33,972 nucleotides of DNA from a virus. How positions within the stretch are numbered: position 1 is the first letter of the stretch; every line of letters begins with the position of its first letter. Where the stretch lies: positions 1 to 33,972 of the IMG/VR virus record IMGVR_UViG_3300009504_000018. One strand, written 5' to 3'. Positions 6,078 to 33,972 of the stretch are shown in pieces. The position numbers and the translations under genes were made by a program. The notes beneath the pieces were generated by a model that saw only the letters and a program-made list of their open reading frames with translations, was not told where the DNA came from and searched no databases.

Positions 6078-6424
6078 GTATGCTTTACATTGAACGGGTT
6101 AGCGACGCTGGGGGCGGGATGTGGGTTTTGTTTGAGCACGGCCGTTTCCACCAGCCGATTGTTATATTGACTGACCACCAGGCGCAGCGCATTGCCTCAG
6201 AGATTGCGAGTAAGGTGGCCGTTGATACGGATGCCCCTATGCTGGTTGGCGACTTAGCCAGGCGGGTTAAAGAGCGGCGCACGGAGCTGCGCATAAGTCA
6301 GGCGGAGTATGCGGCCAAGTTGGGCGTCAGTCGGAATTATCTCAGCATGATTGAGCGGGGGAAGGCTGACAACATCAGCCTGGGGATTTACCGCACGATC
6401 ATGGCTGATTTACAGGGCGCGTGA
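6074..6424 (+). CDS. XRE-family helix-turn-helix regulator
   Basis: The 116-residue protein has a C-terminal XRE domain at about residues 60-112: DLARRVKERRTELRISQAEY, then AAKLGVSRNYLSMIERGKAD. The SQAEYAAKLGVSRNYLSMIE stretch is the helix-turn-helix. The N-terminal 58 residues (MWVLFEHGRFHQPIVIL...) are of unknown type. The start is set by the ATGA overlap with the ASCH gene. It probably binds an operator near this operon. Candidates in the window are the palindromes at 7407-7427, 9833-9857, 10138-10170 and 11174-11199, but none can be assigned from sequence alone. Confidence 0.88.
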   Translation: MSMLYIERVSDAGGGMWVLFEHGRFHQPIVILTDHQAQRIASEIASKVAVDTDAPMLVGDLARRVKERRTELRISQAEYAAKLGVSRNYLSMIERGKADNISLGIYRTIMADLQGA

Positions 6425-7341
6425 TGTTTCTTTTTACCGGCATCAACCCACGTTGGCAGTTATTCCCCTGGCTTCCCGCTGGCCTGCATGTCATGTACAG
6501 CGCCGGGGGAATGTGGGATAACGAGCGGGGCGAATGGCGCTCACGGCCGTTTCCACGTCTGGCCGGTATGCGCTGGTTAGACTGCGGGGGATTCACATTA
6601 CTCAACAGCTATGGCGACTATCCGTTTTCAGTCGCCGCTTACGCTAACCTGGTAGCCAGGCTGAAGCCCACTTTCTACGCCACAATGGATTACCCGTGCG
6701 AGCCGGAGATTAACCGGACGCTGACGCTTACCGACAATAGGACGCGCATCGAAGCGACGGTTGAGAATGCGGCCCGGCTGCTGGCGATGGAGAGTATGAT
6801 CGGGGTTGGCACGGCCGTGCCTGTCATCCAGGGGGATACGTTGGCTGAGTACCTTTACTGTATTGAGTTGTACGCGCAGCGGGGGTTAATTCGGCCGTAC
6901 ATGGCCGTAGGGTCTATGTGCAAGCGTAGCAACGACAAGCAGATTTTGGCCTTGCTGCCCGCCATCTACCAGGCGGCGACGGCCGTTGGGGTGGAGCGGC
7001 TGCACCTGTTCGGCCTGAAACTCTCCCGGATGTTACGGCCGTTGGATGGCTTGATCTGGTCGCGGGATAGCGCGGCCGTCCTCTTCGCCCAAAACAAATT
7101 CATGCGCGGCAAATTCAGCGGCCGTAGCTGGGCGAAATCGAAGGGCGACAAGAAGGCGGCCTTCGGCTATTTCTGGGACAGCGCTCATGAAGATAGCCTG
7201 TTGTACAGCGCGATTCAGCCGGGCGTCTGCCCGGATTGTGGGGGAATGGATGGCTGCTCGCCGTGCGAAGAGTTCGACTTGTGGGGCTGCCCAGATTGCG
7301 GCTTTAGTTGGGACGGCCAGCAGCCTATTTTAGCGGCCTGA
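6424..7341 (+). CDS. dpdA: DpdA-like DNA 7-deazaguanine transglycosylase (TGT superfamily)
   Basis: The 305-residue protein matches the phage/bacterial DpdA branch of tRNA-guanine transglycosylases, which swap guanine in DNA for a 7-deazaguanine base such as preQ0. Visible motifs are LDCGGF (52-57), FYATMDYPCEP (84-94, with D89 a likely catalytic acid), VPVIQGDTLAEYLYCIELY (132-150), YMAVGSMCKR (159-168), LHLFGLKLSR (193-202) and SRDSAAVLFA (213-222, D215). A C-terminal Cys set (C269/C272, C278/C281, C289/C292) forms a double zinc ribbon. No folE, queD, queE or queC gene is visible, so precursor would come from the host or from genes outside the window. It overlaps the XRE gene by one base; GTG at 6421 is an alternative start. 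It is the last gene of its operon. Confidence 0.84.
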   Translation: MFLFTGINPRWQLFPWLPAGLHVMYSAGGMWDNERGEWRSRPFPRLAGMRWLDCGGFTLLNSYGDYPFSVAAYANLVARLKPTFYATMDYPCEPEINRTLTLTDNRTRIEATVENAARLLAMESMIGVGTAVPVIQGDTLAEYLYCIELYAQRGLIRPYMAVGSMCKRSNDKQILALLPAIYQAATAVGVERLHLFGLKLSRMLRPLDGLIWSRDSAAVLFAQNKFMRGKFSGRSWAKSKGDKKAAFGYFWDSAHEDSLLYSAIQPGVCPDCGGMDGCSPCEEFDLWGCPDCGFSWDGQQPILAA

Positions 7342-7371: not shown

Positions 7372-7401
7372 TTGACAATTCAAGCGAATTGATGCTATAA
7401 T
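7372..7401 (+). promoter_or_regulatory. Strong sigma70-type promoter
   Basis: TTGACA (7372-7377) and TATAAT (7396-7401) are both perfect, with an 18-bp spacer and an extended TGC before the -10. It follows the end of the dpdA-like gene and should drive the operon 7452-9714 from a start near 7408. The promoters of the two RNA cassettes at 16553 and 32671 have the same layout. Confidence 0.88.
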
Positions 7402-7406
7402 TCCTT

Positions 7407-7427
7407 CGTCAGTTAATTAGACTGACG
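7407..7427 (+). promoter_or_regulatory. Palindromic operator or 5' hairpin at the transcription start
   Basis: CGTCAGT and ACTGACG form perfect 7-bp arms around TAATTAG, placed exactly where RNA from the promoter at 7372 should begin. A dimeric repressor bound here would block initiation. The same bases could instead form a protective 5' hairpin in the mRNA. Confidence 0.65.
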
Positions 7428-7451
7428 TTGGTCAAGCAAGAGGGCTGAAAG

Positions 7452-7844
7452 ATGAGAATCGCACACGATTACACCCACAACAGTTCAGAGATTATCGAAG
7501 TCGGCGCCGTTCTGGTTTTGAACAAGGCCGAGCGTCAGCAGTTCGCCAAGCGGGTTGAGGGCTGGTGTGGGGGAGAGACTGTTTACGTTTCTCTGCCATT
7601 TTCAGGAATGGTGGAAAGCGACCGGGCTACTTTCATGCAGACGGGGCAGGTCGAGCTGCATTACTGGACTGAGAAAGATGGTTCGTACTTAGACGATGAA
7701 AGTGAATTGCGGATGCTTGAATCCATGTTGGCCGACGACATGAATGGGGTGCGCCGGTTGGCTAAGGTGCGCGACCGCCGCCAGCCCTCGAAGCCTTCTT
7801 GGTTACGGGCTGATTTTTGGGATCGGGTTTTATTGGCAAGTTGA
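7452..7844 (+). CDS. Unknown protein, 130 residues
   Basis: This is the first gene behind the strong promoter at 7372, with a leader of about 44 bases and a GAGGG ribosome site about 10 bases before the ATG. The sequence (MRIAHDYTHNSSEIIEVGAV...) looks soluble and acidic in the middle, with a basic stretch KVRDRRQPSKPSWLRADFW near the end. I recognise no family. Its lead position behind a strong, operator-controlled promoter suggests an early-expressed accessory function, such as host takeover or anti-defence, but this is inference. Confidence 0.75.
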   Translation: MRIAHDYTHNSSEIIEVGAVLVLNKAERQQFAKRVEGWCGGETVYVSLPFSGMVESDRATFMQTGQVELHYWTEKDGSYLDDESELRMLESMLADDMNGVRRLAKVRDRRQPSKPSWLRADFWDRVLLAS

Positions 7845-8694: not shown

Positions 8695-8747
8695 TTGATA
8701 GACTTTGCCGAGACTGACAAACGGTGGAGAAGGAGGATATGGAGAAT

Positions 8748-9092
8748 ATGGCGACAATTTATAAGGGGCAAGGGGTGGCGGTAGAGAGTGAACCGGTTTA
8801 TCGGGTTTACCGCTATGCACCTGACGGCCAGCGGCATCTTGTAGGCAGCAGCGAGGATGCTGAGATAGCGACGGCCTGGGCTAAGAGTTTGGAAGAGGGG
8901 GGGGAGATGCCCAGCGACTTGCTAACTCAAACAGAGGCGGCAAAGTTGACGGGCATCAGCCTAAAAGCGGTTAATTCGGCCGTGCGCGACGGCCGTTTGA
9001 CCGGCTACCCCAATTACGCGGCCACAAATCCGCGCAAGGGTCGGACTTTAGTTAGTCGCGCTGAGGTTATGGAGGTTTGGCATGTTTCCTAA
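8748..9092 (+). CDS. MerR/excisionase-type helix-turn-helix protein
   Basis: The C-terminal half (LTQTEAAKLTGISLKAVNSA, then VRDGRLTGYP and RTLVSRAEVMEVW) is a winged helix-turn-helix of the kind in excisionases and MerR-like DNA-binding proteins. The N-terminal half (YRVYRYAPDGQRHLVGSSED...) looks like a small beta domain. Starts are possible at 8724 (GTG), 8739 and 8748 (both ATG); AAGGAGG at 8730-8736 gives the best distance for 8748. It overlaps the next gene by 11 bases. It may regulate the adjacent control island or act in recombination, but no integrase is visible here. Confidence 0.75.
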   Translation: MATIYKGQGVAVESEPVYRVYRYAPDGQRHLVGSSEDAEIATAWAKSLEEGGEMPSDLLTQTEAAKLTGISLKAVNSAVRDGRLTGYPNYAATNPRKGRTLVSRAEVMEVWHVS

Positions 9093-10223: not shown

Positions 10224-10254
10224 TTGACAGTACAGCCCACCCCCACATTATTAT
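10224..10254 (+). promoter_or_regulatory. Probable promoter of the small-RNA units
   Basis: TTGACA at 10224-10229 is perfect. The -10 is less clear: CATTAT (10246-10251, spacer 16) or TATTAT (10249-10254, spacer 19). It lies directly upstream of the first hairpin-terminator unit. Confidence 0.5.
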
Positions 10255-10258
10255 TCGA

Positions 10259-10325
10259 TCCCGCTTGCGGGAATGTCGTTTTGCTGATCAATGGCGGTCG
10301 TGTGTTTGCGCACGGCCGTTTTTTT
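10259..10325 (+). ncRNA. Small-RNA-like unit A with intrinsic terminator
   Basis: The unit opens with the hairpin TCCCGC-TT-GCGGGA (10259-10272, which may fold with a CUUG tetraloop) and ends with the stem CGGTCGTGTG/CGCACGGCCG (loop TTTG) followed by seven T (10319-10325). A TTGACA promoter lies just upstream. The whole is about 67 bases. A 17-codon frame starts inside at 10291 but has no ribosome site. Confidence 0.55.
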
Positions 10326-10345
10326 GTTGGAAAATTACATCTGAT

Positions 10346-11173: not shown

Positions 11174-11199
11174 AATGTCTATACATTCGTATAGACATT
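11174..11199. promoter_or_regulatory. Perfect 11-bp-arm inverted repeat before the terminase operon
   Basis: AATGTCTATAC and GTATAGACATT flank ATTC. A -10-like CATAAT (11171-11176) overlaps the left arm, with no good -35. A dimeric regulator site at the late-gene start, or an RNA hairpin in the late leader, are both possible. Confidence 0.62.
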
Positions 11200-15932: not shown

Positions 15933-16323
15933 TTTCAAGATAACGCTGTCGGGCGACGAGGTTACGCGAATCTTGGTGGCATTAGCATCGCCGGAGTTCT
16001 TACGGCCGGCGCATGATCGGGCTGGGGCGCGTATTGTGGCTTTCATGAAGCCGTATCCCCCCCCACCCCCCAACAGTTCCTACCGGCGCACCCAGACGCT
16101 TGGCCGACGCTGGATTGTGGCTCCAACTGAGCGGACGTTGTTCGGAATGCGGACAATCATCGGCAATAACACGGTGTACGGGCCATACGTGCAGTCTGAG
16201 GGGAGACAAGCGCAGGTGCATCAGGGTCGTTGGCAGACAGACGCGGACGCAGTGAGGGCGACGGCCAATGATATTTTGGCTGATTTTGTCAGAACGATTG
16301 AGGCGAGGATCAGGAACGCATGA
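15919..16323 (+). CDS. HK97 gp10-like neck/tail-completion protein
   Basis: About 134 residues. The KPYPPPPPNSSYRRTQTLGRRW segment and NNTVYGPYVQSEGRQAQVHQ are typical of the gp10-like proteins that join head and tail, although the order in this genome (before the capsid gene) is unusual for one. GGAGG at 15914 sits too close to the ATG at 15919 and would serve a GTG at 15925 better, so the start is uncertain by two codons. It overlaps the genes on both sides. Confidence 0.7.
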   Translation: MAVVNFKITLSGDEVTRILVALASPEFLRPAHDRAGARIVAFMKPYPPPPPNSSYRRTQTLGRRWIVAPTERTLFGMRTIIGNNTVYGPYVQSEGRQAQVHQGRWQTDADAVRATANDILADFVRTIEARIRNA

Positions 16324-16556
16324 AGGAAATCCCATTAGCCTGCCCGAAATGTCAAACGCCTATGCCCCAGGCGCGTCTGGTTGTTATCTCCGGTCAAATA
16401 TGGCTGGACGTGGGCGTGATGTTGGTTGAGCGCGGCCGGCGGCATTGTCACGCCTGCGGCCATGTCTTTCATTGGACACGGCCGTCCAATGGCAAAACCA
16501 TGCAGTTGATAGCGGCTATGGAGCAATCGAGCGGCAGCCAGCCAATGACAGATTGA
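16320..16556 (+). CDS. Small zinc-ribbon protein, 78 residues
   Basis: Two Cys pairs, CPKCQTPMP near the N-terminus and RRHCHACGHVF in the middle, form a zinc ribbon. The start overlaps the previous stop as ATGA. The last codon lies two bases before the promoter of RNA cassette 1, so the gene ends its operon. A role in transcription or capsid assembly is unknown. Confidence 0.72.
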   Translation: MKEIPLACPKCQTPMPQARLVVISGQIWLDVGVMLVERGRRHCHACGHVFHWTRPSNGKTMQLIAAMEQSSGSQPMTD

Positions 16557-16582
16557 CACGAATAGAACCAATATGCTATTAT
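16553..16582 (+). promoter_or_regulatory. Promoter of RNA cassette 1
   Basis: TTGACA (16553-16558), an 18-bp spacer and TATTAT (16577-16582) preceded by TGC make an extended -10 promoter. The same layout recurs at 32671 with changes that keep the promoter bases (TTGACG, TATCAT). It begins inside the last codon and stop of the zinc-ribbon gene. Confidence 0.85.
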
Positions 16583-16588
16583 CGTAGC

Positions 16589-16726
16589 GACAACGGCCGT
16601 ATAAATAGGCCGGGCAACCGGGAACATTGCCACCCGGCAGCCCCATAAGGGCTGAATCAATATAGTGTTTTGCGAGCTTACCGCCGCATTTTCTCAGTAA
16701 TGAGGGAATGCGGCTTTTTTGTTTTT
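16589..16726 (+). ncRNA. Conserved structured RNA, cassette copy 1
   Basis: From a start near 16589 the RNA contains stem P1 CGGCC/GGCCG (16594-16612). A second hairpin follows, either GCCGGG/CCCGGC (16609-16638, exclusive with P1) or GGCAA/TTGCC (16613-16631, compatible with P1) with a CCGGG loop that could pair with the downstream CCCGG. Then come AGCCC/GGGCT (16639-16653), a conserved TGCGAG-TTACC linker and a terminator. It matches the copy at 32707 almost base for base in the hairpin core. I do not recognise a known riboswitch or RNA family. It may be a leader controlling the capsid gene or a free small RNA. Confidence 0.75.
16683..16720 (+). terminator. Intrinsic terminator of RNA cassette 1
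   Basis: GCCGCATTTTCTCA (16683-16696) pairs with TGAGGGAATGCGGC (16701-16714) over 14 bp, two of them U-G wobbles, with loop GTAA, followed by six T. The capsid polyprotein ATG lies only 19 bases after the T-run, so read-through would be needed to make that mRNA from this promoter. Confidence 0.88.
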
Positions 16727-16739
16727 GGGAGAAATGCGT

Positions 16740-19217
16740 ATGTCCCCAGATGAAGAATTGGAACTGGAAACGGCCGCACAGTCGGACGACCAACCAGGCG
16801 AACAGTTGACGGAGGCGCAGGCTGTTAGTGACGCTTCTAGCGGAACAGCAGGAACGCCAGCCGCAAGCGGCAATCAAAGCCCTCCCCCTGCGCAGAAGTC
16901 GCTTACCATTGACCAATTGGCCGAGACTGTTTGGTCTGGCTTGCGGGTTATGTTCACGCCGCCAGCCGAAGCGGAGCCGGAAATACCTCTTTACCCCCAT
17001 GACTTCCACATTGAAACGATGTTGACTGACCGGGTGATTGTAACAATTTATCTGGATCAATCGCCCTGGAACGCTTCGTACAGCATCCCCTACACCATGA
17101 ATGGCGACCAGGTTGTCTTTGCGTCCCGCGAGCAATGGGAGAAGGTGCAGCGGGAATGGGTGGCGGCCAAGCGGCTGGAGAATACGGCCGTTTACCTCCC
17201 TAACTCCGATTCATCCATTAAGACGGCCGTGTCTGGTCATATTGGCACGGTAGAGGGGATGCTCATTCGTTTTTCTGACCCTGACGACCCCGATTTGACG
17301 GGGGATTATTTCGACGCTGAAACCGATTACGGGCCGCATACAAAGAGCATCGTTTATTACGATCACGGCCTGGATGAGATTGTGGGCGTTAAGAGGCTAG
17401 GAGCTTCTGTGCAGTCGTCAGCCACATTGAAGATGACTGACGTGGGCGTGTGGGTGCAGGCGCAACTTGACCTGCGCGACGAGTATGAAGCGGCCGTCTT
17501 TGGCCTGGCCCAGAAGGGCAAGATGGGTTGGTCAAGCGGAACGGCCAGCCATCTATTCAAAAAGACCCCTGTGAAGAATTCGCGGGGCGCTATTGTCAAT
17601 CGAATTACTCATTGGCCGTTGGGCATTGACGCTACGCTGACCCCCACCCCGGCCGAATTTAGAAATGAGGCGAAGGCGCTTACCGGTAAAGCCATCAGCC
17701 TCAAAACTTATCATGAAGTCACGGCCGCCCGGCCCAACCTAAAGGCGTTGTCACAGGCATCGCGCAGCGATGCGAGCGCAGACGCGACGGGAGAGGTTAA
17801 GCGGCATGATCAAAAACCCCTTAAATCTGGCGGCAATGGCCGCCAATCTCATACCCAATTGGAGGAAATTGATATGCCCCCCGAAGAACTCGAAAAACTG
17901 CTCAAGCAGGTAGCCGATCAAGCGGCGACCAGCGCAGCCAAAACGTTTGCCGATGGTCTGCAAGCAGAAGTCGGCGCATTGAAGACGGCCGTAGCGACGA
18001 TTACCGACGCTCCGGCTACTAACGGCGTTGGCCATGACACGCCCGCCGCTGATGAAACGCAGGATGACGCCCGCAAAAACCTCAACACCTTCTACCAGAT
18101 GCGCTTCGGCAATGAAGACGACGCGCTGCGCCAGGTTAAGAAGGAAGTTGTCGGCGGTGAATACCGTCAGGTTGTGTTGGATCAGACCCGCGCTTTCACC
18201 AAATTCGTTCGCCTCGGCGACGGCCGTTTGAATACCCAGGAACGGGAATTGCTGGATACTCAGATTTTCCCCGACGAGGCTATTAAAACGCTGGTCAAAC
18301 AAGATCACTCCGTCAAGTCCATGAAGGACATGATGGTGGCGGCGCAAGGCGACCTGGGCGGCTTTGCCGTTCCCCCGCCGATGCAGGCCAGCATCTCCGC
18401 CCGTTTGCCCGGCTTAACGGCCGTGCGCGGCGGCGGCGCGACTGTGGTCAACCTGATCAACGGGAACAGCGTGCCGGTGCCTCAGTATGACGGCGGCAAT
18501 GACCGGTACGTCGGCGCCCTGCGCGGCGAATGGGGCAGCGAAGGCCAAGCCCCCGGCGAACAGAACGCCAAGCTGAAGGAAGTAAGTGTGGAAGCCAATA
18601 TCTACACCTACAAAATCCGCATGAGCATGACCCTCGTCCAGGACGCGGCCAACCTCTTGCAGATTGTTGAGGATGATATTGTCAACACCCTCTCCATTGA
18701 CGAGGATGAAGGCTTCCTGATTGGTAATGGCGTTGGTAAACCCCTGGGCTGGCTGCCTGGCGGCGCTAACACCCTTGTCCTGAAAGAGGTTATCTCTGGG
18801 GCGGCTGCGACTTTGACAACCGCTGGCGTGCGCAAGCTGAAACGAGGCGTGGCCTCTCAGTACCGCGCCCGCGGGTCGTTCGTGGGTAACTCTGATACCT
18901 ACGGCGACATCGAGAATCTGACCATCTCTGGCACTGGCTCTGATCTGGCCTTCCCCAGCCTGGCCGACAATGGCCTGCTGCTGCGCCAGGCGGCCCGCGA
19001 AAGCGAGGCTATGCCTGATGTGGCGGCTGGCGCGTTCCCCCTCCTGTTTGCGGATATGGCCGCTTACTGGATTGTGGAGAAGTTCGGTCTGACTGTGGCC
19101 CGCTTCCAGGACTCTGGCACGGGCATCAACCGGGTTGAACTGCAAGTTCGCAAGCGCGTTGGCGGGCGACCGGTGGAATTGTGGCGGGCGGCCGTGCAGA
19201 AGGTTGCGGCTCCCTAA
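16740..19217 (+). CDS. Prohead protease-scaffold-major capsid polyprotein
   Basis: An 825-residue protein. About residues 165-330 are an HK97-type prohead serine protease (YYDHGLDEIVGVKRLG, VQAQLDLRDEYEA, KGKMGWSSGTASHLF with S265/S266, HWPLGIDATLTPTPAEF). Residues 379-510 form a helical scaffold-like delta region (MPPEELEKLLKQVADQAATS). From about 510 the HK97 major capsid fold follows (AQGDLGGFAVPPPMQASISA, YTYKIRMSMTLVQDAANLLQ, DEDEGFLIGNGVGKPLGWLP). Protease, scaffold and shell are usually separate genes. Self-cleavage near 379-510 would free the shell protein. The ATG at 16740 has GGGAGA 7-9 bases before it. An internal ribosome site (next entry) would give scaffold-capsid alone. Confidence 0.92.
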   Translation: MSPDEELELETAAQSDDQPGEQLTEAQAVSDASSGTAGTPAASGNQSPPPAQKSLTIDQLAETVWSGLRVMFTPPAEAEPEIPLYPHDFHIETMLTDRVIVTIYLDQSPWNASYSIPYTMNGDQVVFASREQWEKVQREWVAAKRLENTAVYLPNSDSSIKTAVSGHIGTVEGMLIRFSDPDDPDLTGDYFDAETDYGPHTKSIVYYDHGLDEIVGVKRLGASVQSSATLKMTDVGVWVQAQLDLRDEYEAAVFGLAQKGKMGWSSGTASHLFKKTPVKNSRGAIVNRITHWPLGIDATLTPTPAEFRNEAKALTGKAISLKTYHEVTAARPNLKALSQASRSDASADATGEVKRHDQKPLKSGGNGRQSHTQLEEIDMPPEELEKLLKQVADQAATSAAKTFADGLQAEVGALKTAVATITDAPATNGVGHDTPAADETQDDARKNLNTFYQMRFGNEDDALRQVKKEVVGGEYRQVVLDQTRAFTKFVRLGDGRLNTQERELLDTQIFPDEAIKTLVKQDHSVKSMKDMMVAAQGDLGGFAVPPPMQASISARLPGLTAVRGGGATVVNLINGNSVPVPQYDGGNDRYVGALRGEWGSEGQAPGEQNAKLKEVSVEANIYTYKIRMSMTLVQDAANLLQIVEDDIVNTLSIDEDEGFLIGNGVGKPLGWLPGGANTLVLKEVISGAAATLTTAGVRKLKRGVASQYRARGSFVGNSDTYGDIENLTISGTGSDLAFPSLADNGLLLRQAARESEAMPDVAAGAFPLLFADMAAYWIVEKFGLTVARFQDSGTGINRVELQVRKRVGGRPVELWRAAVQKVAAP
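17828..17845 (+). other. Hairpin just before the internal capsid start
   Basis: TGGCGGC and GCCGCCA form a perfect 7-bp stem with loop AATG, 15 bases before the internal GGAGGAA site. It may expose or shield the internal ribosome site. Confidence 0.45.
17874..19217 (+). CDS. Nested scaffold-major capsid product from an internal start
   Basis: GGAGGAA (17861-17867) lies 6 bases before an in-frame ATG at residue 379 of the polyprotein, a better ribosome site than that of the long form. Translation from here would give a 447-residue delta-domain plus HK97 major capsid protein without protease. Such nested in-frame products are known in other phages (lambda C/Nu3). It explains how hundreds of capsid subunits could be made for few proteases. 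This is inference from a ribosome site and not from protein data. Confidence 0.68.
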   Translation: MPPEELEKLLKQVADQAATSAAKTFADGLQAEVGALKTAVATITDAPATNGVGHDTPAADETQDDARKNLNTFYQMRFGNEDDALRQVKKEVVGGEYRQVVLDQTRAFTKFVRLGDGRLNTQERELLDTQIFPDEAIKTLVKQDHSVKSMKDMMVAAQGDLGGFAVPPPMQASISARLPGLTAVRGGGATVVNLINGNSVPVPQYDGGNDRYVGALRGEWGSEGQAPGEQNAKLKEVSVEANIYTYKIRMSMTLVQDAANLLQIVEDDIVNTLSIDEDEGFLIGNGVGKPLGWLPGGANTLVLKEVISGAAATLTTAGVRKLKRGVASQYRARGSFVGNSDTYGDIENLTISGTGSDLAFPSLADNGLLLRQAARESEAMPDVAAGAFPLLFADMAAYWIVEKFGLTVARFQDSGTGINRVELQVRKRVGGRPVELWRAAVQKVAAP

Positions 19218-19237: not shown

Positions 19238-19266
19238 GCGGTACGGCCGTTTAACGGCCGTACCGC
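19238..19266 (+). other. Perfect 13-bp hairpin after the capsid gene
   Basis: GCGGTACGGCCGT and ACGGCCGTACCGC pair perfectly with loop TTA. Both arms contain the octamer ACGGCCGT. There is no T-run, so an mRNA-end stabiliser or processing signal is more likely than a terminator. Confidence 0.6.
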
Positions 19267-28044: not shown

Positions 28045-29624
28045 CCCGTTTGTCTGTCAATTGGCTAACGCGCAATTTTGACACGCCCCTCCTTGCGCCT
28101 CGTTTGAGTTACGCCGTGCAGGATATGACGGCCCACATGATCGGCGGGCCGCGCCAGATGATGTTAGAGGTCAGCGGCAGCGAGGATGCGCTATGGGAGA
28201 CGGCCAATTTGCTGCGAGCGCCGACCACTGTCCGCGACGGCCGTCAAGAGCCTGTCTGGTGGGGATATGCCTCAGAGGTCTCCATACCATCTGGGGAATT
28301 TATGGTAGGCATACGCCTGGATGAAATGGCTAATCGGGTGGCTGTCGCTTACACCCACGCGATGGATGGGGGAACATTCTCATTGCGGGAAACGACCCCA
28401 TTTGCCGAAAATCCGGCCAGCATCGCCGAATATGGCATCAAGGAGCTACTGCATGGCGCGGCGGCTGAGTCGCCGGGGAGCGCCTTGAATTTGCGGGATA
28501 GCCTGTTAGAGGCGGTGGGGTTGCCTGTGCCTCTAACAAATCGGAAATCGGGCGCTGGCGGCTTTGGCCGCATTTACTGCCGGGGCTGGTGGGATACGCT
28601 GTCCTGGCGGTATTACTCGCAAACATCCGGCCGGGAGGCGCATGAAGGCGGCGCGACAACGGCCGTGCCAATTGGCGGGGAGGATGAGAGAGAGGTCGCG
28701 CAGTCGTTTAGCCTGACGGCTAACCATGAATGGGTTGTGCAGAGAGTGCAACTGCGCTGCCAAAAAATAGGCGCGCCCACTGACGCCCTGCGGCTGTCAA
28801 TATGCGCCAACAATAGTGGCCAGCCCGGAACTGTCTTGGAAACGGCCGACGTAGACGCCGCCAATATAGCCAACAACATGGCTGTGACCACCTTTGAATT
28901 TGACCTGACCACCCTGCTCCAATATGGCACAACCTATTGGTTGGTTCTGGCGCGAACGGGCATCAGCGACAATGAGGATTATTACCGCGTATCGGTGGAC
29001 GCTACGGGTAGTTACCCCAATGGGGCGCTCTATTACAATGACCTCATCAATAACAACTGGTACGCCGTCGATCCAGCGGAGGATTTGATCTTCGACATTG
29101 CTGGCGCATGGGAGACCAACCAACAGATCGAGGCGATGATAGCCGACTACCCCAATACTGGCTTCATCACCGGAATTAAAACGCCGTCTACGGGTCAATT
29201 CTCTAATCAGTTTCGGGGTGGAGACACAACGACAATGGCTGAGATTGAGGCTCTGCTGCGCGTGGGCGGCGCGAACAAACGGCCGTTGTTGGCCTACATT
29301 GACGTCAATCGCTTCCTGCATGTTTACGAAGCCCCCGCCCGGCCGGGATTCGGACAAGATTTGTCATGGCACCGTTTACGTAGTAACTCGGTATTAGAGG
29401 ATTCGTGGGGAGCGCCGGTGCCGCCTGAGGCGGTTATGACGGGTATGTGGGTGCGGTTGGTGGACATTATTCCCGCAACGGCTAACCTGCAAATGATTAG
29501 CGACTTATCCTCCCAATTCATCGAATCGGCCGCCTATGACGGCCGTTCTGGCAAGACATTCTATACTCCTAGAGGGCGAAGCAATCCTTTAGATATAAGC
29601 AAGCTCGGAGGGTTCTATGGCTGA
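28041..29624 (+). CDS. Tail hub/tip protein with sugar-binding-like insert
   Basis: A 527-residue protein, coupled to the gene before by ATGA. The ends (MTRLSVNWLTRNFDTPLLAP, GGPRQMMLEVSGSEDALWE and KRPLLAYIDVNRFLHVYEAP) look like a tail hub subunit of the Tal/gp-J-like position. A central part (about residues 216-355: VAQSFSLTANHEWVVQRVQL, ICANNSGQPGTVLETADVDA, YGTTYWLVLARTG) matches the choice-of-anchor/carbohydrate-binding type of beta domain seen in many secreted proteins. The insert may help bind host surface sugars. Function by position. Confidence 0.72.
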   Translation: MTRLSVNWLTRNFDTPLLAPRLSYAVQDMTAHMIGGPRQMMLEVSGSEDALWETANLLRAPTTVRDGRQEPVWWGYASEVSIPSGEFMVGIRLDEMANRVAVAYTHAMDGGTFSLRETTPFAENPASIAEYGIKELLHGAAAESPGSALNLRDSLLEAVGLPVPLTNRKSGAGGFGRIYCRGWWDTLSWRYYSQTSGREAHEGGATTAVPIGGEDEREVAQSFSLTANHEWVVQRVQLRCQKIGAPTDALRLSICANNSGQPGTVLETADVDAANIANNMAVTTFEFDLTTLLQYGTTYWLVLARTGISDNEDYYRVSVDATGSYPNGALYYNDLINNNWYAVDPAEDLIFDIAGAWETNQQIEAMIADYPNTGFITGIKTPSTGQFSNQFRGGDTTTMAEIEALLRVGGANKRPLLAYIDVNRFLHVYEAPARPGFGQDLSWHRLRSNSVLEDSWGAPVPPEAVMTGMWVRLVDIIPATANLQMISDLSSQFIESAAYDGRSGKTFYTPRGRSNPLDISKLGGFYG

Positions 29625-32305: not shown

Positions 32306-32674
32306 ATGAAAACCCAGCTTACTCTCACTGTCGAACAGTTAATTGCCGCCGATAGCGCCCTGGTCAGATTGCAGGAGACTGCATTGCCCGCGCCGGTGGC
32401 GTTCAAAATCGGCCGTATCATCCGCGAGGCGCGCCGGGAGCGCGTCACGGCCGAGGAAACCCGGCAGGCGTTGGCCCTGAAATACGGCCAGGCGGAAGAC
32501 GACGGCTCAGTAACCATCCCGCAGGAAAGAATAGCGGAGTTCGTTGAGGAGCTACGGCCGTTCTTGCAGACAGAGGTCACCCTCGCCGCCGCCCCCATCT
32601 GCCTGGCAGACTTAGGGGATGCGCCGGTAACGCCGGGCGAGATAGACGCCCTGGCCTGGATGCTTACCGATTGA
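32306..32674 (+). CDS. Small fibre-associated protein
   Basis: A 122-residue helical protein (MKTQLTLTVEQLIAADSALV..., IIREARRERVTAEETRQAL, ALKYGQAEDDGSVTIPQERI). Similar short proteins with a KYG...DG...IP...EFxxEL pattern lie in other tail modules; I cannot name the family. RBS AAAGGAAA precedes the ATG. It ends inside the promoter of cassette 2 (TTGACG covers its TGA). Confidence 0.68.
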   Translation: MKTQLTLTVEQLIAADSALVRLQETALPAPVAFKIGRIIREARRERVTAEETRQALALKYGQAEDDGSVTIPQERIAEFVEELRPFLQTEVTLAAAPICLADLGDAPVTPGEIDALAWMLTD

Positions 32675-32700
32675 CGCGCATAGAACAACCATGCTATCAT
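32671..32700 (+). promoter_or_regulatory. Promoter of RNA cassette 2
   Basis: TTGACG (32671-32676), 18-bp spacer and TATCAT (32695-32700) preceded by TGC. The layout is the same as at 16553, with sequence between the boxes also shared (ATAGAAC). Confidence 0.83.
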
Positions 32701-32706
32701 CTTGAT

Positions 32707-32841
32707 GATAACGGCCGTGCTAATCGGCCGGGCAACCGGGAAGATTGCCACCCGGCAGCCCCCACGGGCTGAAATGACATAGCGTACTGCGAGTTTACCG
32801 CCGCATTTCCTCATGGGAGGAAATGCGGCTTTTTTGTTGGA
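32707..32841 (+). ncRNA. Conserved structured RNA, cassette copy 2
   Basis: The parts match copy 1: P1 CGGCCG/CGGCCG (32712-32730), hairpin GGCAA/TTGCC (32731-32749) with loop CCGGGAAGA, the downstream CCCGGC (32751-32756), AGCCC/GGGCT (32757-32770) and the TGCGAG-TTACC linker. Loops differ from copy 1 (TGCTAAT for P1, CCAC for the third hairpin) while the stems stay. This supports a selected RNA structure. It precedes the adhesin gene. Confidence 0.75.
32800..32835 (+). terminator. Intrinsic terminator of RNA cassette 2
   Basis: GCCGCATTTCCTC pairs perfectly with GAGGAAATGCGGC (13 bp, loop ATGG) followed by six T. Compared with copy 1, two U-G pairs became U-A and C-G, changes that preserve pairing. 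The next gene starts 43 bases beyond. Confidence 0.9.
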
Positions 32842-32878: not shown

Positions 32879-33972
32879 ATGGCGAAAGCAGAGATTGTTA
32901 ATCTGGAAATGCACAGGGGAGATCAGGGGGCTGGCTCTACATTCTCTTTTGTGCACGGCCGTTTGGCCAATGAGATAGTGCAGGCCAGATTCTACGTCAG
33001 GGATCGCGTTCCCCAGCCCAATAAGCAAAATGTTATCTTTTTTGCGATTCGTTGGACGGAACGGCCGGGCGATTGGACGGTTGAGGATGAGACGGCGACG
33101 GTCGTCGTCCGCGCTGCGGACACGGACGCCATGCCTAGCGGCAATTGGTATTACGACGTCGAGTTCATTCTCAGTAATGGAGACATCATAACGCCCCAAC
33201 GCGGGCGGTTTGAGTTGATTGGCGACATCGTTACCGACATGGCCGGTACGCCTGCCCCTGCCCCATTTTACTATGTTACAGCGTCCCAAAAATGCGCCCT
33301 CGACCATGCGCCGCACGCATCGTGCGAAAATCCCTTCGTCACGGTGAATGACTTTTACGCCAATATGTCGTCCCTTCATTCGGTGACGCAGTTCCGGGCC
33401 AGCTGGCAGAGCCAGACCGGGTATGTGGGGGGGATGCCCGGCGGGGTGCTGATTACCGACGTGTACATTATTCGCCTGACCCCCTGGGATGATTTGACTA
33501 ATTTCCAACTTGGCCGAGATGGGCAACCGGGTTGGTTGGTGGGGAATCATCAGCACAATTTGCTTGAGCCGTTACCGGCCGGGGAGACGAGCGCGGTGCG
33601 GCGGGTAACGGTCAACAAGTATGTTGATCAGCCCATCTCCCTGCTGGCGACGTGGGATCAGGGGGACGCGACCCAGGGCGAAGCGCTGATCCTGGTGGAT
33701 TGGCGGACGCTGCACTTCAAATCGCTGTACGCGGAAATTACCTACGACGGGCCAACGGGGCAGACGATTATCGGGACTGTGCCGGGGCATTCAATTATTA
33801 CGGGCGTTTGGGTAGTGCGAACTGTGCCATTTTCCTGGAGTCCACTGCCGCCTATCCCGCCGAAAACTGTCTATACTGACGGGGCGCATTTTCGGGTTGG
33901 TAAAAGCGGGGCGTTGTCCTGGCTTGTGGCCAATGGCGACCACAACCTGGCTGAGGCGATTCCGGCCGGGGA
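32879..33972 (+). CDS. BppU-like adhesin/baseplate protein, 3'-truncated by the window edge
   Basis: The frame is open to the window end (364 codons visible). The N-terminal 115 residues (FSFVHGRLANEIVQARFYVR, GNWYYDVEFILSNGDIITPQ, RGRFELIGDIVTDM) match the N-terminal domain of upper-baseplate proteins, which anchors receptor-binding proteins. A beta-repeat follows twice: LITDVYIIR...WLVGN..HNLLEPLPAGE (33446-33588) and IITGVWVVR...WLVANGDHNLAEAIPAG (from about 33793). GAGGAA precedes the ATG. The second RNA cassette controls or precedes it. Confidence 0.8.
   Translation, partial: MAKAEIVNLEMHRGDQGAGSTFSFVHGRLANEIVQARFYVRDRVPQPNKQNVIFFAIRWTERPGDWTVEDETATVVVRAADTDAMPSGNWYYDVEFILSNGDIITPQRGRFELIGDIVTDMAGTPAPAPFYYVTASQKCALDHAPHASCENPFVTVNDFYANMSSLHSVTQFRASWQSQTGYVGGMPGGVLITDVYIIRLTPWDDLTNFQLGRDGQPGWLVGNHQHNLLEPLPAGETSAVRRVTVNKYVDQPISLLATWDQGDATQGEALILVDWRTLHFKSLYAEITYDGPTGQTIIGTVPGHSIITGVWVVRTVPFSWSPLPPIPPKTVYTDGAHFRVGKSGALSWLVANGDHNLAEAIPAG

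Follow-up and report, generated by a model that had tools for sequence, protein, structure and literature searches.

To our knowledge, late-gene control is understood in few phages, chiefly those of Proteobacteria and Firmicutes. In phage lambda, the constitutive-looking promoter pR′ is followed by a short 6S leader, the intrinsic terminator tR′, and then the late genes; a late leader of this Q-dependent type also has a QBE in its promoter DNA, a sigma-dependent pause, and a Q-family antiterminator that the phage encodes. The put RNAs of phage HK022 permit read-through with polymerase alone, via the β′ zinc-binding domain. Lambda Q loads at a promoter-proximal pause and controls the late genes (PMC7171158); the terminated pR′–tR′ product is constitutive, and StxS, from the pR′–tR′ region of Stx phages, is a working sRNA (PMC7873438). 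HK022 carries two similar put RNAs of ~70 nt with stem-loops, putL lying right at the transcript start (PMC9378689). In Gram-positive operons, conAn and EAR are structured RNAs at the operon start that serve as processive antitermination signals (PMC8955417).

The window analyzed here is a virus record of 33,972 bases from a tailed phage that encodes both terminase subunits (small and large), a portal, a Phage_capsid-family protein, and a tape measure. Its large predicted genes lie on the + strand; because one gene is cut at the window end, the record is probably a fragment. An earlier note on this DNA described, just before the capsid gene, a promoter, a structured RNA, a terminator, and a ribosome site in that order, and sequence prediction at 16553–16740 bears that order out (cassette 1):

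16553–16582, + strand: promoter, TTGACA-N18-TATTAT, TG before the −10, 11/12
16594–16598/16608–16612, + strand: P1 hairpin, CGGCC/GGCCG; loop differs between copies
16613–16631, + strand: alternative hairpin P2′, GGCAA/TTGCC (in RNA, GGCAA/UUGCC)
16618–16622/16633–16637, + strand: P2 hairpin, CCGGG/CCCGG; conserved 10-nt loop AA(C/G)ATTGCCA
16638–16643/16649–16654, + strand: P3 hairpin, CAGCCC/GGGCTG; loop differs between copies in length and sequence
16671–16682, + strand: conserved linker 5′ of the terminator, TGCGAG(C/T)TTACC
16683–16720, + strand: intrinsic terminator, 14-bp stem (16683–16714), GTAA loop (4 nt), T6, −22.1 kcal/mol
16740–19217, + strand: major capsid protein gene; SD GGGAGA at 16728–16733, further in-frame ATG at 16734

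The cassette 1 promoter is the second-best σ70 match on the + strand of the window. By consensus, its RNA would start at ~16589 and end at ~16720 (~132 nt), with a leader of ~96 nt predicted to form three short hairpins. The capsid ATG lies 20 nt past the T-run, and this 20-nt stretch contains no promoter-like site that we could find. Since the nearest promoter scoring at least 10/12 is 5′ of the terminator, capsid transcription must read through it. The earlier label of capsid polyprotein goes beyond the data: the gene product is a protein of 825 aa whose C-terminal third is the Phage_capsid domain.

The second copy is present in the window, with ~80% identity from promoter to T-run; this stretch (32666–32838) is the sole other convincing match in the window (cassette 2):

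32671–32700, + strand: promoter, TTGACG-N18-TATCAT, TG before the −10, 10/12
32712–32717/32725–32730, 32736–32740/32751–32755, 32756–32761/32766–32771, + strand: predicted hairpins P1–P3
32800–32835, + strand: intrinsic terminator, 13-bp stem (32800–32829), T6, −23.5 kcal/mol
32879–33970, + strand: gene behind cassette 2; SD GAGGA; runs into the window end

Cassette 2 ends 44 nt 5′ of the 32879 gene, whose position suggests a virion-type product. The copies resemble each other from slightly 5′ of the −35 as far as the T-run, with unrelated flanks on both sides; promoter, leader, and terminator are thus kept as one unit. The mutually unrelated upstream ORFs (16320–16556 and 32306–32674) both terminate Thr-Asp-stop, their TGA falling within the duplicated −35 hexamer (16554–16556 and 32672–32674), so that the duplicated unit carries the gene end too.

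With moderate confidence, we propose that the cassettes are off-by-default, factor-dependent antitermination gates for late operons, of the λ pR′–tR′ kind, with a ~132-nt RNA as their terminated product. Host RNA polymerase would initiate at the strong cassette promoter, make the three-hairpin leader, and usually halt at the intrinsic terminator, freeing the short RNA. A putative antitermination factor, of phage or host origin, would engage the complex via the conserved leader RNA or via conserved promoter-proximal DNA, and the factor-bound polymerase would continue past the terminator, reaching the capsid and tail genes at cassette 1 or the 32879 gene at cassette 2. With one kind of gate at both sites, a single factor could switch both. 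The bulk need for capsid, set beside a terminator in its path, suggests such a gate, as does the twofold occurrence of a strong promoter that has a strong terminator ~100 nt behind it.

The promoter–RNA–terminator–gene order had led the earlier note to weigh an attenuator, a put-like leader, and a small RNA, which we judge to be the right set. As independent small RNA genes, the cassettes would make a trans-acting RNA of ~132 nt with the terminator forming its 3′ end; their late-gene position would be incidental, or the terminator would insulate. The conserved unit extends exactly from promoter to T-run, it exists in two gene copies with a strong promoter of their own, and StxS provides a precedent in which the terminated pR′–tR′ leader product is a working sRNA, so that a gate need not be excluded. 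Set against this, an sRNA gene at this position would shut the capsid operon off unless read through, and it has no homologue found elsewhere. Among the phage gene starts, no antisense target of the conserved single-stranded tail rose above shuffles: the best tail duplexes scored −20.1 and −19.3 versus shuffled mean bests of −20.5 and −21.4. We consider this reading unlikely.

Divergence between the copies is unevenly distributed. None of the 32 paired positions in P1–P3 differs, versus 19/64 unpaired leader positions (Fisher p = 1.6e-4), a test with a slight circularity, since these two sequences also served to predict the stems. A 37-nt core has 1 mismatch (permutation p = 0.008), and the promoter spacer is partly conserved. 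In the terminator stem, two pairs are preserved via change (T.G to T-A, T.G to C-G). The P1–P3 pairs never change and hence show no covariation; double changes in shared leader helices number 1 observed against 1.06 expected. A candidate pairing of the P1 loop with downstream sequence (columns 13–16/79–82) was rejected, its one double change being no more than expected. With two copies from one genome, selection on RNA and selection on DNA cannot be told apart. The earlier note had named a lack of homologues with stem covariation as evidence against its proposal, and this applies in part: no homologues were found outside this genome, and pair-preserving changes occur in the terminator stem only.

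The invariant stems and P1–P2–P3 core would also fit a put-like element, in which the leader RNA would act directly on the polymerase that transcribes it, binding it and making it termination-resistant without a protein. Two similar three-hairpin RNAs of ~61 nt, beginning at ~+6, recall the HK022 put pair. A constitutive cis antiterminator would, however, leave the adjoining conserved strong terminator pointless, the hairpins number three and not two, and neither by sequence nor in Rfam do they match an antiterminator RNA already described, all of which makes this reading distinctly unlikely.

The description of the RNA as structured stands for leader plus terminator, which folds below shuffles (z −4.7 in copy 1, −4.1 in copy 2), and is weaker for the leader alone, where z is −1.1 to −1.4 across all 95–96 nt and −2.2 to −2.7 when just the three hairpins are folded. 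Most of the folding excess over shuffles comes from the terminator. Neither proposed switch gained support: GCCGGG/CCCGGC in place of P1 is 8–9 kcal/mol worse than P1+P2+P3 in both copies, and the TGCGAG linker pairs with the CGCA of the terminator arm over 4 bp only, leaving the terminator in place (pairing probability 1.0). The sole low-cost conserved alternative is P2′, a hairpin absent from the earlier note. In each copy it costs 3.2 kcal/mol relative to P2, and by prediction it would be the earlier of the two to form during transcription, before giving way to P2. An H-type pseudoknot of GGCAA/UUGCC with CCGGG/CCCGG was rejected as sterically implausible (connecting loops of 0 and 1 nt), and the two hairpins are taken as alternatives. 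Neither GCCGGG/CCCGGC nor P2′ affects the terminator, whose pairing probability at equilibrium is 1.0 in both copies, and no competing anti-terminator fold was found in either copy, competitors for the terminator arm reaching at most 4 bp.

Because alternative folds leave the terminator unaffected, a self-contained riboswitch is unlikely. More broadly, a metabolite riboswitch or classical attenuator would refold into an anti-terminator; the location 5′ of a terminator is as expected for one, and the conserved P2/P2′ competition, with P2′ predicted first, could provide a switch. Yet the terminator-arm alternatives are too short to disturb a stem that is predicted to be fully paired in both copies, no leader peptide is open in both copies on inspection, no Rfam riboswitch reached the cut-off, and capsid genes under ligand control would be unusual. 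This reading is highly improbable. Since the leader lacks an anti-terminator fold of its own, regulated read-through would need an outside factor.

Promoters and terminators are coupled far beyond chance in this window. On the + strand, four promoters reach 10/12 or better and three terminators are strong. Of these terminators, 3/3 sit <150 nt behind such a promoter, giving three pairs, whereas 100 shuffled sequences gave 0.01 pairs on average and never more than 1. The remaining pair forms a third unit:

~10224–10326, + strand: third promoter–hairpin–terminator unit; promoter 10224–10251 (16-nt spacer), hairpin 10259–10272, terminator 10293–10320

Its layout is that of cassettes 1 and 2, its sequence is unrelated, and it occupies the gap that precedes the genes for DUF5662, terminase, and portal; its RNA would be ~65 nt. 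The presence of three promoter–terminator units in one genome bears on a further reading, an ordinary strong promoter and leaky terminator that are unregulated and were spread by duplication. Promoter and terminator are indeed of common kinds, the leader without its terminator folds just modestly below shuffles, and it shows no covariation; the three units, the near-identical 37-nt core, and the invariant stems amid otherwise uneven divergence weigh on the other side. We regard it as very unlikely.

Several observations count against the gate we favor. The terminator could simply be leaky, and a cassette of this kind is missing from the terminase-related records. Searches with PF06530 and PF03589 found no Q-family protein in the record or in seven relatives, one of which gave a sub-threshold match, and neither Pfam nor PHROGs recognized an antiterminator in the scanned ORFs. 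As the record is a fragment, this is weak counter-evidence. The early operon behind the promoter at 7372 encodes unassigned small proteins, one of them (8724–9092) with an HTH_17-like stretch; these are candidate antitermination factors only, and single-sequence structure predictions for 7452–7844 and 8724–9092 were too poor to rely on (pLDDT 42 and 49).

In keeping with the earlier note, to which no RNA family with this core was known, no Rfam match over either cassette reached the gathering cut-off (best 22.3 bits versus 65). Searches by blastn gave only chance matches (E 6 or worse) in 50,697 phage records and in plasmids. Pattern scans of IMG/VR returned no cassette homologue (for one pattern, none among the matches listed), and a scan of GTDB genomes returned three matches that, when inspected, had neither hairpins nor a terminator around them; such scans demand exact matches at chosen positions and could miss diverged homologues. 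The covariance search proposed earlier gave no homologues: model R1 found no cassette in 11 records whose terminase is 48–58% identical to that of the window and which otherwise have little in common with it. Scans with the capsid and tape measure found no close relative. Covariation across independent homologues, the mark of a new structured-RNA family, was not found.

Other features of the window are recorded alongside. The octamer palindrome ACGGCCGT occurs 54 times versus 0.9 expected, spread over all codon frames as well as gaps. It is similar to the HIP1 palindrome of cyanobacteria, shows no enrichment in the terminase relatives, and may mirror the host genome. The P1 5′ arm falls within one such octamer; two others form a 13-bp hairpin right after the capsid gene (19238–19266), without a + strand T-run. 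A weak R1 match at 28653–28784 (E 0.03) was rejected, as it falls within a coding gene and depends on this common octamer. Region 7372–7450 combines a perfect promoter (12/12, TG ahead of the −10) with a hairpin behind it, CGTCAGTTAATTAGACTGACG, which lies in the 7452 operon's 5′ leader. The product of 6421–7341 is a DpdA-like protein (PF23859, E 6.8e-12) of the 7-deazaguanine DNA-modification family, and the phage also has two DNA methyltransferase-like genes. On the − strand, 9732–9797 matches the Rfam DUF3800-VIII RNA (63.1 bits versus a cut-off of 40.2) and directly follows the HAD-like gene; seven related records searched contained none. A perfect inverted repeat, TGTCTATACATTCGTATAGACA (11176–11197), lies 5′ of the small terminase gene; it is operator-like and occurs once in the window.

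A bolder form of the antitermination proposal is that the cassettes represent a new class of phage antitermination RNA, in which a duplicated three-hairpin leader would use the cotranscriptional P2/P2′ exchange and bind a factor or polymerase itself, opening the attached terminator and thereby switching on the capsid operon together with other late operons in a lineage without Q, N, or put. We hold this to be possible but doubtful.

Comparison with described systems places the cassettes near several of them. The conAn and EAR systems likewise have structured RNA at the operon start; in the cassettes the terminator sits in the leader and not inside the operon, and no ConAn1-like protein was identified. 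StxS illustrates how termination in a late leader can yield an RNA that is stable, although the cassette RNA is unrelated in sequence and has no phage target by duplex prediction. Like putL and putR, the cassettes are two similar structured RNAs of ~60–70 nt near the transcript start, before two operons; a put element, however, comprises two stem-loops in ~70 nt with the put sequence and fold, whereas the cassettes have three hairpins, another sequence, and an attached conserved terminator, and precede late, not early, operons. Relative to lambda, the cassettes occur in two copies at two operons, their leader core is a conserved multi-hairpin RNA of unrelated sequence, and no Q-family protein was found in this phage fragment. 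The defining pR′–tR′ layout of a promoter, a close intrinsic terminator, and late genes is nonetheless present by prediction, as is the order promoter, short leader, intrinsic terminator, late genes, with read-through logically required. Each cassette is a small, self-contained unit and directly testable, and a repeated gate in a phage without close relatives in collections suggests structural-gene antitermination, possibly RNA-based, beyond the Q, N, and put families.
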